From contig CAIYYW010000313.1 of NCBI GenBank assembly GCA_903930515.1, positions 1 through 47,767 of the forward strand: DNA of 47,767 nt, in the 5' to 3' direction. Source of the stretch: an uncultured delta proteobacterium. Lineage in GTDB: Bacteria; RBG-13-61-14; DRUE01. Positions within the stretch are counted from its first letter, which is position 1. Every line of letters starts with the position of its first letter. The notes under the pieces are model-generated. The model had not been told where the DNA came from, made no database searches, and saw nothing but the letters and a program-made list of their open reading frames with translations. Made by a program: the position numbers and the translations under genes. Below are positions 10,731-17,247 of the stretch, one piece after another.

Positions 10731-12635
10731 TTATATGCCTAATTTCTTCCGCTTCGCCTGGATATGCGCCCAAATTCCATCCACGGCCATACTCGCGTTG
10801 GTTTCCAGATGGAGGATTCCGCCGGTGACCTCTTTGCAATCCTCGGTCAGCAGTTTCACCAGGTTGGTTCCGCCGGTGATGGTCGGGACCGGGTTGACAT
10901 AAGTGTAAAGGCCGAGCGCGAGCGCGAAGATGGCGTCAATGGTGGCCTTCTGTTCCATATATTCGGGCGCGACCGCGGCGACCGGGAGGTCCGGGAGCGG
11001 GACATTACCGAGCGCGCCGGAGATGGAGCAGAGCAGGTCCGCGAGTCTTCCGGTATCGGTGCAGGTGCCGAAACTGAGCACGGGCGGGACCTTCAGGCTG
11101 GAGCAGATTTTTTTCAAGCCCGGCCCGGCCAGCTCCATCGCCTCGGGCTTGCACAACCCGGCCGCCTGGAGCGCGCCGTTCCCGCATCCCATTGCCAGCA
11201 CCAAAATGTCGCGCCGGATCAGCTCCCTCGCAACCGCCACGGTATGCACATCCTGGCCGGTGTCGCGGAGCGCGGTGCAGGACACCAAACCCGCGACCCC
11301 CACGATGGTCCCGTCCTTGATCGCGTTGAGCAGCGGGTCCAAACTTCCGCCCAATGCCGAAACAATGCTTTCCGGCGAAAAGCCGACCATCGCGTCCTGG
11401 ATCGGCTGGCCTATGATCGGCTCAATGGATTTCCTCCGCTCCGGGAAATTGGCAATCGCCATCTGCAACAATTTTCCGGCCTGGGCCTCGGCCTGGTCCG
11501 GCAGGTAATCAATCCGGTCCGTGATCCCTTCAAACGCCACCAGGTCGCTCACCGGGATCAGCTTGAACTTGTATTTCCGCGCGTAAACCGGATCAACCGG
11601 CATTGAGCAGTTCATATCGCAGGCGAACAAATCCACGCACCCGCTCGCCAGAACCGCTTCCTGCATAATCCAGTTGCCGGTGAAACCGAAAAAGACCTCA
11701 TCCATCTCCCAGCGCTGGGTCATCTCCTGGCCGGTTTCTATATTGGCGATCACCCGCAGACCCTTTGCCCCGACCGATTTCGCCCGGTCCTGCCATTCCT
11801 TTTTCCGCGCCAACTGCACCATCGCGAACCCCAGGAACGGCTCGTGGCCGTTGGGAAGGATGTTGACAAAATCCGGATCCAAAACGCCCAGGTCAACCCG
11901 TATCAAATGCGGCTTCGGAATTCCGAAAATAATGTCCTGGCAATACTCGTTCACGATCTGGCTCTGATACCCCGTCGCCACCGAAAGCCGCATCGCCTTG
12001 AGCGCCAGACTCTGATAGTATCCGTCAACATTGGTCAGGCAGGACGAGGTCGCCCGCATAATTTCGCCGTGGATGCCGCCGGGAAAAATCCCCAGCTTCC
12101 GCCAAAGCCCCTTCCGCTCCGGGGGCGCGAGCGATTCCACGATTCGGCTCTCCTGGTCGTGCTTGCGGTTGAAGTCAGCCTCAACCAATTCGCACAACGC
12201 GAGCGCAATCGCTTTCGCGTCTCCTTTCGCCTCTATCCCGAGTCGTTCGGCAAAAGTTTTGAGCTTCTCCGGCTCCTTGATTTGGAACGGGGTTTTGCCT
12301 CGCGCAGTCGCGGCCAAAGTCTTGATCGTCTGTTCCGTGTGATATTGATAGGTGGACGCGCCTAAAACATTTCTCAGCAGCATCATCCGCATCGCCATCC
12401 CGTCCGCGCTGATCCCGCACACGCCCCGCTTGTCCTTGGCCAAATCCGACCGGCAAGGGCCGTTGCTGCAAAGATCGCAGCGAGCGCCCGACATACAGAA
12501 CGGGCAGCGCTGGTCCGGGCTTTGGCCCAGGCCTTGAGCCTCATACCGGTCCCAGATATTGCTCAGCCCGTCCCGCTTGATCCGCTCATAAGCCTTTTGA
12601 ACCGAAACATGATAACTAATCCTGTCCTTTTCCAT
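10731..12635 (-). CDS. cooS: Atypical Ni-type carbon-monoxide dehydrogenase catalytic subunit
   Basis: This 634-residue protein is of the CooS/hybrid-cluster superfamily. N-terminal cysteines are C44 and C47 (a CPFC pair, candidate D-cluster) and C53, C56, C61, C73 (B-cluster pattern). Candidate C-cluster ligands, by comparison with remembered CooS proteins, are H264 (NGHEP), C343 (MNCSMP), C453 (VSCTAL), C484 (MGCGNG) and C525 (GTCTDTG). The position normally held by the cysteine of the CTGNE-like motif is E300 (IETGQE). The histidine relay motif (AHSDHGR type) reads YQYHTEQ, with one His left. This is the divergent CooS type, so CO oxidation should not be assumed. The ATG follows GGAGGAG. 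No acsB, cooF or cooC is nearby; it lies downstream of iorB. Confidence 0.85.
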   Translation of the reverse strand: MEKDRISYHVSVQKAYERIKRDGLSNIWDRYEAQGLGQSPDQRCPFCMSGARCDLCSNGPCRSDLAKDKRGVCGISADGMAMRMMLLRNVLGASTYQYHTEQTIKTLAATARGKTPFQIKEPEKLKTFAERLGIEAKGDAKAIALALCELVEADFNRKHDQESRIVESLAPPERKGLWRKLGIFPGGIHGEIMRATSSCLTNVDGYYQSLALKAMRLSVATGYQSQIVNEYCQDIIFGIPKPHLIRVDLGVLDPDFVNILPNGHEPFLGFAMVQLARKKEWQDRAKSVGAKGLRVIANIETGQEMTQRWEMDEVFFGFTGNWIMQEAVLASGCVDLFACDMNCSMPVDPVYARKYKFKLIPVSDLVAFEGITDRIDYLPDQAEAQAGKLLQMAIANFPERRKSIEPIIGQPIQDAMVGFSPESIVSALGGSLDPLLNAIKDGTIVGVAGLVSCTALRDTGQDVHTVAVARELIRRDILVLAMGCGNGALQAAGLCKPEAMELAGPGLKKICSSLKVPPVLSFGTCTDTGRLADLLCSISGALGNVPLPDLPVAAVAPEYMEQKATIDAIFALALGLYTYVNPVPTITGGTNLVKLLTEDCKEVTGGILHLETNASMAVDGIWAHIQAKRKKLGI

Positions 12636-12804: not shown

Positions 12805-13425
12805 CTATTTATTTGCTGCTTGCTGGAATCCCTTGATGCCTGCATTGAAAGCCCTAAGATTCAGGTCTCTTTTTTCCGGGTCGGAGAAGAGTTCGGAGAT
12901 GGCTTGGTGGAATAGCTCAAGAGAAAAGTCCAGCCAGTTTGATGCGGCCAGGGCGCCGACCATTACCAGGTTCTGGGCCAGGTGATTTCCGGCCTGTTTG
13001 GCGAGTTCAGTGGCTTCCACCACGACCGACACCGCGGCGAGGTTTTTGATCTGGGTGAAGATCAGTTCCAGGTCGGGATATTTGGAATCTCCGGAGAGGA
13101 CGGAGATGGGATAGTTTGGCCGGGGATTGAAGACCACCTTGGTAGTATCGTTTCCATACTCAAGCAGGACTCGGAGGGTCTCAAGCGGTTCAAAGCCCAC
13201 GATCAGGTCAGCCTCTCCTTTGGGGATAAGCGGCCCGACCGGGAATGCGGTTGAGAAACGGATGTGGCTCATCACGGACCCGCCGCGCTGGGAGGCTCCG
13301 TAGGTCTCGCCGATGGCGACTCGGAGTCCCTTTTTGATCCCGGCTCCGGCCACGATCTGGCTGGCCAGGATGTTGCCCTGTCCGCCGACTCCGCAGACGA
13401 TCAGGTTAATAAGGTCGGGGGTCAT
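12805..13425 (-). CDS. iorB: Indolepyruvate:ferredoxin oxidoreductase, beta subunit
   Basis: This 206-residue gamma-type 2-oxoacid oxidoreductase subunit pairs with IorA to decarboxylate indolepyruvate and other aryl-pyruvates to aryl-acetyl-CoA while reducing ferredoxin. Diagnostic segments are CGVGGQGNILAS near the N-terminus, GETYGASQRGGSVMSHIRF and EADLIVGFEPLET. Its ATG overlaps the stop of the upstream HEPN gene by 4 nt (ATGA), and GGAG lies just upstream, so translation is coupled to HEPN rather than directly to iorA. Confidence 0.93.
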   Translation of the reverse strand: MTPDLINLIVCGVGGQGNILASQIVAGAGIKKGLRVAIGETYGASQRGGSVMSHIRFSTAFPVGPLIPKGEADLIVGFEPLETLRVLLEYGNDTTKVVFNPRPNYPISVLSGDSKYPDLELIFTQIKNLAAVSVVVEATELAKQAGNHLAQNLVMVGALAASNWLDFSLELFHQAISELFSDPEKRDLNLRAFNAGIKGFQQAANK

Positions 13426-13841
13426 GGTTTCTCCTGCTTAAAAGCGATCTGGGTCAAGATTTTGAGCAATTGCTCGGCGGTATCCAGGTATTGCCGGAAT
13501 TGCTTCTGGTCAGGCATTTGCATTTCCTCCATGGGATACCGCGCCTCAATATAGAACGGTTCAAACTTCCTGACAAAATCGCGGTATGGTTCGAGGCTGG
13601 GCGCGAAATCGGGATAAAAATGAAGGAGTTTTTTCAAGAGATATCCCAAGCCATGTTCTTTGATTAACTCCCCTTCGGGATGGGAGATGATGCACCCCTT
13701 GATCGCCAACTCGAGCGATTGCTGAATCCAGAACCCCGCGGCCTCCAGATCGTTTTGGCCGAGCTGGTTTTTGGCTCTCTCCATATGCTTCCTGCTCTTC
13801 TCAAACCACAGGGTCGGCTTTCGAGAATCTCTCCTAGCCAT
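13422..13841 (-). CDS. HEPN-domain protein
   Basis: This 139-residue HEPN (PF05168-type) protein is recognisable from the first helix FWIQQSLELAIKGCI, the KEHGLGYLL segment and the late FYIEARYP motif. HEPN proteins paired with minimal nucleotidyltransferases form toxin-antitoxin modules, in which HEPN is an RNase with an Rx4-6H motif that the partner modifies. Here no clear Rx4-6H exists; the nearest is KKLLHFY (residues 70-76) with Lys in place of Arg, so RNase activity is doubtful. It overlaps the nucleotidyltransferase by 8 nt upstream and iorB by 4 nt downstream. Confidence 0.85.
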   Translation of the reverse strand: MARRDSRKPTLWFEKSRKHMERAKNQLGQNDLEAAGFWIQQSLELAIKGCIISHPEGELIKEHGLGYLLKKLLHFYPDFAPSLEPYRDFVRKFEPFYIEARYPMEEMQMPDQKQFRQYLDTAEQLLKILTQIAFKQEKP

Positions 13842-14157
13842 GCAATCTCTTCCCGTCTTCCAAAATCTTTTCGATGAAGTAGTTGCCTTTTTTGAGATTC
13901 CGGCTGATTTCGCGGGGGGTCATCACCAGGATGTCCATCGGCTGCTCCATGATCAGTTCGTCCAGCAGCCGCGAAACCTCGACATACCGGTCAACAAAAT
14001 TCTTTTGAGTCCGCTTGATAATCAACAAATCTATATCGCTTTCCTTTCCCGGCTTGCCCCAGGCGTGCGAGCCGAACAGGATGATGCGCTCGGGATGATA
14101 ATTTTTAACCAGCCGGGCGGTGATCTGTTTGATCAGTTTTTCGGAATGCGGGCTCAT
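13834..14157 (-). CDS. Minimal nucleotidyltransferase (MntA-like)
   Basis: This 107-residue Pol-beta-type nucleotidyltransferase carries the GSx10DxD signature: G29-S30 followed by D41 and D43 in LFGSHAWGKPGKESDIDLLI. The third acidic residue is likely in MDILVM. Such proteins act as antitoxins for HEPN partners by AMPylation. Its ATG overlaps the iorA stop (ATGA) and its stop lies inside the start of the HEPN gene, so all three are translationally coupled. The start is fixed by the overlap. Confidence 0.88.
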   Translation of the reverse strand: MSPHSEKLIKQITARLVKNYHPERIILFGSHAWGKPGKESDIDLLIIKRTQKNFVDRYVEVSRLLDELIMEQPMDILVMTPREISRNLKKGNYFIEKILEDGKRLHG

Positions 14158-16094
14158 TTTTTTGCCGCCTTCTTCTTCAAGGGTTGCTCGAGCTTAATCG
14201 CTCCCTTCGGGCAGATTTTGAGACACACTCCGCAGCGGGTGCAGACCACTTCGTCAATGGCGGCCTTCTGTTTTATATTGTCCCAGATCAATGCCGGGCA
14301 GGCGAAGACTCGGGAGCAGAAGCGGTTGCAGCCGCACGCGTCTCCGAGGCATATTTCCTGGTCAATGATCACGCGCGGCTGATCTTCCTTGCGCTCGCGT
14401 CCCTCAATCAGGGCGCATTTATGCCGGAAGACCAGGACCCGCAATTGATCGGTTTCCAGGGCGTCTTCCAGGATTTTGAGAGCCTGCTCAAATTCAAACG
14501 GGTCCACGGCCTGGACCGTGAGTCCGATCCCGGCGCAAACTTTTTCAATTGAGACCGGCTCAACCTGCTGACCGAGGGCGTTCTTTCCGGTTCCGGGATG
14601 GGGCTGGAATCCGGTCATGGCGGTGCCGGAATTGTCCAGGACGATGAAGACCATTTTGGCGCCATTATATTTGGCGTTGACCAGCCCGGGCAAACAGGAA
14701 TGGAAAAAGGTGGAATCCCCGGCAATGGCGATCACGGGCTGATGGAAGCCGGCGAGGTTTCCGAGACCGTTGGCGAATCCGATCCCGGATCCCATACATT
14801 GGAGGGTCCGGGAGAGGTTGTATCCGGTCTTGCTCACGCCCATGGAGTAGCAGCCGATGTCTCCGATCAAAACTCCCTCGCGGTCGTCTTCCTTGAGCGC
14901 GGTCTTGATCACCCAGAAGGACGCGCGGTGCGGACAGCCGGCGCAAAAGGCCCATTCCCTTCCGGGCAGTTTCCATTCCGCGGCCTGTTTTCCGGCGGCG
15001 AGGAATTTTTCGCTCCGCTCCGGCCGCCTGGCGCCGAGGATGCCGGCGAGGGAATCATAAACAATGTCCGGGCTCATCTCTCCGATCCCGGCTCCCCTCG
15101 GGCCTTTGATCTGACCGCCGCGCTTGCCGAAAATTTTCGGGACCGCTATTCCCTGGAACACGGCCCCGGCCATTACCACCTTGAGATTATCTTCCAGGAA
15201 CGGGTCCACTTCTTCAAAGACCAAGACCTGCTTGGCCCGGGCCAGATGCTTGATCACGAGTTGTTCCGGAAGCGGCCATCCGGTTCCGATCTTGAGCACG
15301 CCGGCCTGATCGTCCAGGCCGAGGTTGTGAACGGCTTCAATGGCGTATGCCGCGGAAGGCCCGGAGGCAACGATCACGGTCTCGGCGTTTTCCGGTCCCA
15401 AGTATGCGTTGAAGGGTGATTTTTCAAATTCAGCTTTGGCCTGGTTGAAGCGGAGGTGGAGGATGGGATGCACGAGCGGATGTCCGATAAACCGGTCCAG
15501 GAACCCCATTGCCGGCTTCCGGGAGCGGGTCTGAATTTCTCCGAGCTTGACATCGCCGCGCGCGTGTGAAACCCGGGTGACGCTCCGGACCAGGACCGGG
15601 AGCTTGACCCGCTCGGAAAGCTCAAAGGCATATTTGATCATCTCCTTGGCCTCTGCGGGAGTGCTCGGCTCCAACAGAGGCAGCTCGGCGAGCTTGGCAT
15701 GAAGGCGCGAGTCCATTTCATTGGTGCTGGAATGACCGCCCGGATCGTCCGCAACCACCAGCACGATCCCTCCCTTGGTCCCGGAGAGGTTCACGGTATT
15801 GAGCACATCCGAGACCACATTCAGGCCATTCTGCTTCATTGAGGTGAGCGATCTCATCCCGGCGAAGCTGGCCCCGCAACAGGCCTCAAACGCCACCTTC
15901 TCGTTCACCGACCATTCCGCGTGATGTCCGAAAACCTTCGCGGCCTGCGCCAAAGTTTCCTGGATCTCGCTGGAGGGCGAGCCGGGATAGCTGGCGGTGA
16001 AATCCACTCCCGCCTCAATCGCCCCTCGCGCAATCGCCTCGTTTCCCATCATCAGGACGGTTTTGCCGGACTCTTTCAAAAACACCGGGTTCAT
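14154..16094 (-). CDS. iorA: Indolepyruvate:ferredoxin oxidoreductase, alpha subunit
   Basis: The 646-residue IorA binds thiamine diphosphate and two [4Fe-4S] clusters. The pyrimidine-binding part includes MMGNEAIARGAIEAGVDF and TASYPGSPSSEI. The ThDP motif is GDSTFFHSCLPGLVNAKYN followed by LDNSGTAMTGFQPHPG. The C-terminal ferredoxin has CLGDACGCNRFC and CTRCGVCLKICP. I chose the ATG at 16094, which overlaps the stop of the FrhB-like gene (ATGA) and matches the family start (LMMGNEAIARG 14 residues in). Its partner iorB is displaced downstream by a nucleotidyltransferase-HEPN pair. It would supply reduced ferredoxin during aromatic amino-acid breakdown. Confidence 0.95.
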   Translation of the reverse strand: MNPVFLKESGKTVLMMGNEAIARGAIEAGVDFTASYPGSPSSEIQETLAQAAKVFGHHAEWSVNEKVAFEACCGASFAGMRSLTSMKQNGLNVVSDVLNTVNLSGTKGGIVLVVADDPGGHSSTNEMDSRLHAKLAELPLLEPSTPAEAKEMIKYAFELSERVKLPVLVRSVTRVSHARGDVKLGEIQTRSRKPAMGFLDRFIGHPLVHPILHLRFNQAKAEFEKSPFNAYLGPENAETVIVASGPSAAYAIEAVHNLGLDDQAGVLKIGTGWPLPEQLVIKHLARAKQVLVFEEVDPFLEDNLKVVMAGAVFQGIAVPKIFGKRGGQIKGPRGAGIGEMSPDIVYDSLAGILGARRPERSEKFLAAGKQAAEWKLPGREWAFCAGCPHRASFWVIKTALKEDDREGVLIGDIGCYSMGVSKTGYNLSRTLQCMGSGIGFANGLGNLAGFHQPVIAIAGDSTFFHSCLPGLVNAKYNGAKMVFIVLDNSGTAMTGFQPHPGTGKNALGQQVEPVSIEKVCAGIGLTVQAVDPFEFEQALKILEDALETDQLRVLVFRHKCALIEGRERKEDQPRVIIDQEICLGDACGCNRFCSRVFACPALIWDNIKQKAAIDEVVCTRCGVCLKICPKGAIKLEQPLKKKAAKK

Positions 16095-17215
16095 TTTTTG
16101 ACTCCACCGATCGGGTTCGCGTTTTTGATCCAATCTTTCTCGCGGTCGCTGATCGCCAAATATTCCCGCGCCTTCTTCTCCACGAACAGCGCGTCCACCA
16201 CCCGTTTCTTTTTACCCAGGGCCGCGTTGCGCAACAGCCGCTCGCGCTCTGCCGGAAATTCATTGAGCTTGAGCGCCTTGTCCTTTTTCGCTTTTGCCGC
16301 GAATTCCTGGCCGCGTTCGGTCCGCACAATCAAAGTGTTCCAGTCATCCTTCCACTCGGTGCCGCCGACGCTCAGGTCGGCCAACTCGGAGGTGAAGTCA
16401 TAGCAAAGGTCGCAGGTGGCTTTGTGGAGTTCCTTGATCGGCTCAAAGTCCAATTCCTTTTTGCCCTTCGCGGTGTAAACCACAAACCGGTTGAAAGGGA
16501 TGTCAATTTTCTTCGCGGAATTGATCTCCATCCGGCCCGCGAGGTGTTGATAGAGCTTGCGGTAATCCAACGCCCACATACAAAACAGCCCGATGATCAG
16601 GGGGACCCGCTCGGAAAGCTCCGGCTCCAAAACCATCCGCTTCCGGAGCGCCTCCACCTGGCAGGCCCGTCCCACGAACGCCAGCTTCTTGCATTGCTTG
16701 AGCGAGTCGTCCAGGATTTTCAGGCTCGGCGCCGAGGTGTATTTGCTCCCGGCGCACGCCAGGATTTCTTTTTCGGTCCGGGCCAGCATCGGCTCGGGCA
16801 GGAGCTGGTAGCTCTTGGAATAATTGACCAGGATCGCGCCGTCAATAATTTTTTTGCCCAGCGCGTAAGTCAGCGCCCCGGTCACGGCTCCGCCGTATTG
16901 GGCCTTGGCTTGGACGCTCTTTTTCCAGGATTGCGCCAGAAAAATCCCCCGATGCGTTCCCAGCACAAAATCCTCGCGCGGCTTGCCGAACACCTTCCGG
17001 TTCAAATCCTCCAGGTCCAGCCTGGTCCTCGGGCAGATTTCATAGCATCTCCCCTCGGTCTTCCCGCACGGCTCCAGCAGGACCACTTTTTCCTTCCGGA
17101 CCTTGAAATACGGGCAGAGGCCGAGGCAGGCCCCGCAACCGGTGCACAGCCCGAACTTGAGGATTTCAAATTCCAGCTCCGCCGGACCTTTGTGCAAACT
17201 TAATTGATCGGCCAC
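16091..17215 (-). CDS. FrhB/FdhB-family iron-sulfur protein
   Basis: This 374-residue protein of the coenzyme F420 hydrogenase/dehydrogenase beta-subunit family starts with a ferredoxin motif LCTGCGACLGLCPYF and a second cysteine set CGKTEGRCYEICP. The FrhB core includes AQYGGAVTGALTYAL, ACAGSKYTSAPS, VGRACQVEALRK and TCDLCYDFTSELADLSVGG. Members transfer electrons between flavin/F420 and ferredoxin. Here it heads the ior operon and overlaps iorA by 4 nt, so a role as electron acceptor for, or donor to, IorAB is plausible. Start: GTG at 17215, nine bases after GGGAGG. An upstream TTG at 17242 lies at the predicted transcription start. Confidence 0.85.
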   Translation of the reverse strand: MADQLSLHKGPAELEFEILKFGLCTGCGACLGLCPYFKVRKEKVVLLEPCGKTEGRCYEICPRTRLDLEDLNRKVFGKPREDFVLGTHRGIFLAQSWKKSVQAKAQYGGAVTGALTYALGKKIIDGAILVNYSKSYQLLPEPMLARTEKEILACAGSKYTSAPSLKILDDSLKQCKKLAFVGRACQVEALRKRMVLEPELSERVPLIIGLFCMWALDYRKLYQHLAGRMEINSAKKIDIPFNRFVVYTAKGKKELDFEPIKELHKATCDLCYDFTSELADLSVGGTEWKDDWNTLIVRTERGQEFAAKAKKDKALKLNEFPAERERLLRNAALGKKKRVVDALFVEKKAREYLAISDREKDWIKNANPIGGVKK

Positions 17216-17247
17216 TTTCCCAATCCTCCCTGAACTACTCAAGCTAG

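Follow-up and report, generated by a model that had tools for sequence, protein, structure and literature searches.

A probable mobile MNT–HEPN module at the iorA/iorB junction of an uncultured delta proteobacterium

In a 47,767-nucleotide stretch of DNA from an uncultured delta proteobacterium (contig CAIYYW010000313.1; hereafter the window), a minimal nucleotidyltransferase (MNT) and a HEPN protein are encoded between iorA and iorB, the genes for the two subunits of an indolepyruvate:ferredoxin oxidoreductase. We consider it likely that this pair is a mobile HEPN-T/MNT module of the toxin-antitoxin type, horizontally exchanged and now located at the iorA/iorB junction with both of these genes unbroken. 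For this reading speak the lack of such a pair at iorAB loci outside the phylum, an identical arrangement in a congener, a discordance in synonymous divergence (dS) with a sharp left edge, and a lowered G+C content. In agreement with it are also a pair of another subfamily beside a duplicated iorB head in a second family, the many HEPN genes per genome, similar pairs between hdrB and hdrA, and an excess of flanking repeats.

Open reading frames and sequence gave the following order on the minus strand, and Pfam and NCBIfam agreed in classifying each of the five genes.
16091..17242, minus strand: frhB/fdhB-like gene, first of the overlapping run (open reading frame; PF04432/PF04422)
14154..16094, minus strand: iorA, indolepyruvate:ferredoxin oxidoreductase alpha subunit, 646 aa (TIGR03336, 588 bits, under the curated cut-off of 650.9)
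13834..14157, minus strand: MNT, 107 aa, GSx10DxD intact (PF18765, PF01909; motif)
13422..13841, minus strand: HEPN-T protein, 139 aa (PF05168; alignment; model and fold search)
13431..13435, minus strand: AGGAG in the last HEPN codons, likely ribosome-binding site of iorB (read from the sequence)
12805..13425, minus strand: iorB, indolepyruvate:ferredoxin oxidoreductase beta subunit, 206 aa (PF01558, TIGR03334; IOR beta 168 bits)
The frhB-like/iorA, iorA/MNT and HEPN/iorB overlaps each comprise 4 nt (ATGA), and MNT and HEPN overlap by 8 nt. The original prediction had been right about the order from iorA to iorB with overlaps of 4, 8 and 4 nt, about GSx10DxD in the nucleotidyltransferase (one occurrence, residue 29) and about the absence of a clear Rx4-6H from the HEPN protein (zero occurrences); the pair is also toxin-antitoxin-like in nature, as proposed. 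Translational coupling across the pair is plausible. That loss of the pair would disturb iorB, as had been argued, does not follow, because an AGGAG of its own stands five nt ahead of the iorB ATG. A gene for a CooS-type carbon-monoxide dehydrogenase catalytic subunit (10731-12635, minus strand) starts 169 nt downstream of iorB.

Three genomes represent the phylum in our collection, namely that of the window (G000), its only congener (G001) and a member of another family of the same order (G002), their iorA being 86% (G001) and 64% (G002) identical to that of the window. On contig C631 of G001, gene order and joints around MNT and HEPN are the same as in the window. The pair is hence neither a single-strain event nor an assembly error at 13.4-14.2 kb, two concerns raised with the original prediction, since the junctions are identical in G001 while its flanks have diverged. 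In G001, a frameshift near codon 533 breaks iorA in two (L010, ~3100) and the frhB-like gene has one or more apparent frameshifts (L010, 1340-1434), for which sequencing fault or decay may account. Outside the phylum, 107 iorA loci of bacteria and archaea were compared. At 91 of them iorB comes next on the same strand, the gap measured by alignment being -21 to 232 nt, and at the remaining 16 it lies elsewhere or outside the available stretch. None of these 107 loci holds a relative of the window MNT or HEPN. The four-gene order thus recurs in the congener and is missing from the loci of other phyla, where contiguous iorA-iorB, named beforehand as an observation that would count against the prediction, is indeed found. 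Judged by gene order, and with other lineages as the reference, the pair has been inserted. G000, G001 and G002 each have a second iorAB copy, which is likewise uninterrupted and carries no pair. Near iorA, mostly just upstream, a frhB-like gene is present in about one third of the 107 loci (L012, L013 and many of L041-L078), which suggests a widespread FrhB-IorAB complex.

The DNA of the pair shows 95-96% identity between G000 and G001, as compared with 75-81% for iorA, 74% for frhB and 72-76% for other blocks of the window. Synonymous divergence is 0.21 for MNT and 0.10 for HEPN, and 0.85-1.8 for eleven other genes, iorA and frhB included; iorB gives 0.48 over the 53 codons available. The G+C content of the pair (50%) lies below that of iorA (59%) and iorB (57%). 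Low dS together with lower G+C indicates that the pair moved recently, and we infer that, since the two species diverged, it has been transferred horizontally or has recombined. A constraint at the nucleotide level, from overlapping frames or RNA structure, could in principle also keep dS low, and the overlapping frames do constrain a few codons at the joints. We regard this as very improbable, as the drop in dS spans both genes end to end and not just the joints, and the base composition of the pair differs from that of its flanks.

A more serious competitor, although we rate it below an even chance, is a single insertion that predates the radiation of the genus or of the order, with the low G000/G001 divergence caused by later homologous recombination or gene conversion there and the G002 pair by later replacement. 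The identical junctions of G000 and G001 would fit such an old event, as would the right side of the pair, where divergence fades gradually over the first iorB codons (55/60, then 48/60 positions identical). The left edge, by contrast, is abrupt, at the MNT start codon with only ~75% identity beyond, which is unusual for a homologous tract. Even this scenario would leave the pair horizontally exchanged. Against a mobile module it may be said that low dS could partly stem from gene conversion at one old site instead of new insertion, and that a host function would also explain why place and exact joints are kept in both congeners.

The corresponding junction of G002 holds a different pair. Its MNT is 38% identical to that of the window, and its HEPN went undetected in a search with the window HEPN. 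In MNT, HEPN and combined trees, the two pairs never group; the combined tree places that of the window among pairs from other phyla and joins that of G002 to one at G000:C329, in a sampling biased by choosing outgroups for similarity to the window HEPN. The trees do not favour descent of both from one pair already present in the order's ancestor, and the G002 pair was probably acquired separately, from another subfamily. Upstream of its MNT, G002 retains the old iorB start with ribosome-binding site and ~20 codons, and a complete iorB follows the pair; the duplicated heads share 48 nt with 46 matches. This remnant resembles a fresh insertion scar and argues against one old insertion.

Both proteins of the window pair are intact and under purifying selection, with dN/dS between G000 and G001 of 0.06 for MNT and 0.27 for HEPN. 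The HEPN protein belongs to PF05168 (66.6 bits, cut-off 22), and its predicted model (mean pLDDT 88.6) has as nearest folds 1ufb, 1wol, the sacsin HEPN domain and 2hsb, all of them HEPN-T structures (probability 1.0, with weak E-values). An MNT with GSx10DxD lies upstream of and adjacent to it, as in HEPN-T/MNT modules, and the same order occurs in most of the pairs collected. Among 25 aligned HEPN members, H63 is invariant and Q40, Q41, E44, Y102 and P103 are nearly so, all present in the window protein, in which the nearly invariant K45 is Leu. A motif scan of this sequence found no Rx4-6H; the protein retains R101-Y102, so that a His and a basic residue are available as an alternative. In HEPN-T proteins resembling 2hsb, the His of Rx4-6H is typically missing, and another conserved His could substitute for it (PMC3710099). 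By its position, Y102 is a candidate counterpart of the toxin Tyr that is poly-AMPylated in type VII MntA-HepT.

The original prediction had taken the missing Rx4-6H as a sign that the pair may have been domesticated to regulate or modify the oxidoreductase. This argument fails because the absence is common in the HEPN-T family (PMC3710099). The idea itself, in which MNT would nucleotidylate IorA, IorB or HEPN and so tune the enzyme, the genes being kept between the subunits for this reason, can draw on the exact stop/start joints in both congeners, on purifying selection on both proteins, on the presence of an MNT-HEPN pair at the iorA/iorB junction in both families of the order, and on MtlR as a HEPN-superfamily repressor of a metabolic operon (PMC3710099). 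We nevertheless judge it unlikely and find the earlier claim unsupported. A domesticated operon regulator should share the history of its operon, and this pair does not, as the dS discordance with iorA and the different subfamilies in the two families show. Related pairs moreover lie by hdrA, aldehyde oxidoreductase and restriction genes, and the second iorAB copies do without one. MtlR itself has no MNT partner and is conserved with its operon, unlike the window pair.

Per genome, 7-15 PF05168 HEPN genes are found, most with an adjacent MNT gene. Some MNT-HEPN pairs again lie in redox operons. In G148, from another clade, two MNT-HEPN pairs stand in tandem between hdrB and hdrA (L240, 1-6000, G148:C83); the second shares a 4-nt overlap with hdrA, and a truncated duplicate of the hdrA head stands before it. 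Upstream of hdrB, this contig carries additional MNT and HEPN genes. One of the G148 pairs recurs between hdrB and hdrA of G399 (85-86% identical), a different pair occupies this place in G401, and in G393 a pair precedes hdrB. On G399:C216 (L264, ~1380-1215), a long inverted repeat between hdrB and MNT resembles a small non-coding mobile element. G002:C81 (L200, 1160-3338) carries a pair of yet another subfamily with a 4-nt overlap with an aldehyde:ferredoxin oxidoreductase gene. We considered a family specific to this enzyme; its nearest homologues, in G278, have no such gene in their vicinity, and the pair was hence treated as one more insertion. Plasmid or viral carriage was also considered and rejected, as PLSDB contained no HEPN relative and IMG/VR no close one, the latter search having covered close relatives only. 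From these loci and the scar in G002, it appears that pairs keep landing in such operons and sometimes copy part of the target gene on insertion.

We therefore aligned the flanks of 82 MNT-HEPN pairs, scoring as positive a direct repeat with a score of at least 30 close to both sides, and used as control 4000 random 720-nt segments from genomes with such pairs, MNT and HEPN being masked. Long direct repeats of 36-120 alignment columns were seen at 12 of the 82 pairs and in 21 of the 4000 controls, the latter corresponding to 8 or fewer distinct places (Fisher P ~5e-13). Two of the twelve had prompted the test; without them, the count is 10 of 80. In L177, L181, L227 and L259, the repeated stretch is the end of a gene that stays intact upstream, and in L151 and L182 it is the beginning of one that stays intact downstream. 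Long direct repeats around pairs are visible in L192, L180, L227, L147, L177, L259, L215 and L181, and often the tail of the upstream gene recurs downstream of the pair. Loci of VapC, compared with approximate boundaries, had strong repeats in 2 of 24 cases, a sample too small to show whether the pattern is peculiar to MNT-HEPN. The window pair itself has no long flanking repeat, its best flank alignment reaching 15 columns and a score of 10, whereas the G002 pair at the same junction has one of 48 nt. Insertion with long target duplication is thus shown for relatives and, for the window pair, only possible. At somewhat less than an even chance, we may speculate that MNT-HEPN pairs are mobile units in themselves that insert with a target duplication of ~40-120 nt. 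They would often enter at the end of a gene and thereby leave it intact, and time and again they would come to rest between the genes for subunits of an anaerobic redox enzyme (iorAB, hdrBA), a place where their loss is costly.

Such behaviour has a parallel in restriction-modification systems, which are known to insert with duplication of long target stretches, variable in length and of the order of 100 bp (PMC3874152, reviewing Nobusato 2000 and Furuta 2010). The selfish unit and the long, variable direct repeats are shared by the loci at G002 iorB and G148 hdrA; the units here are MNT-HEPN modules, and the window's own pair lacks the repeat. With known HEPN-T/MNT modules (PMC2701414, PMC3710099), the window pair shares an MNT that comes first and overlaps HEPN, typical protein sizes, the missing canonical Rx4-6H with a conserved His further upstream, and a patchy, mobile distribution with clustering near restriction-modification operons, related pairs being found near restriction genes in our set as well. 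It differs in being flanked by the genes for two subunits of one metabolic enzyme. Type VII MntA-HepT (PMC7641770; a Legionella relative, PMC11586414) likewise combines a GSx10DxD nucleotidyltransferase with a HEPN protein. The window HEPN, however, is of PF05168 and not DUF86/PF01934 and lacks the toxin motif RX4HXY, and its MNT reaches 32.2 bits on NF047752, where the MntA equivalog cut-off is 60.

On the reading as a mobile module, which we prefer, the pair would be expressed from the transcript of the operon. MNT, made first, would nucleotidylate and silence HEPN, in analogy to MntA and HepT, and translation of iorB would continue both from the ribosome-binding site in front of it and through coupling. 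The module would serve to maintain itself by addiction or to defend the host, and not to control the oxidoreductase. Its place between two subunits of one enzyme would make a clean loss costly and thus favour persistence.

Among the toxin-antitoxin systems of prokaryotes, MNT-HEPN has been described as the most abundant (PMC7641770), and in a search of the literature outside subscription journals we found neither an explanation of how it moves nor a report that it inserts with long duplications of the target. The long repeats seen more widely around such pairs could thus be the new part of this work. If it is true, repeats around roughly one in seven pairs and repeated landing between enzyme subunits would constitute a direct footprint of insertion; the movement of MNT-HEPN would be tied to that of restriction-modification systems, and its mechanism would become testable. 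It would also warn against taking the embedding of a toxin-antitoxin pair in an operon as evidence of a regulatory role.
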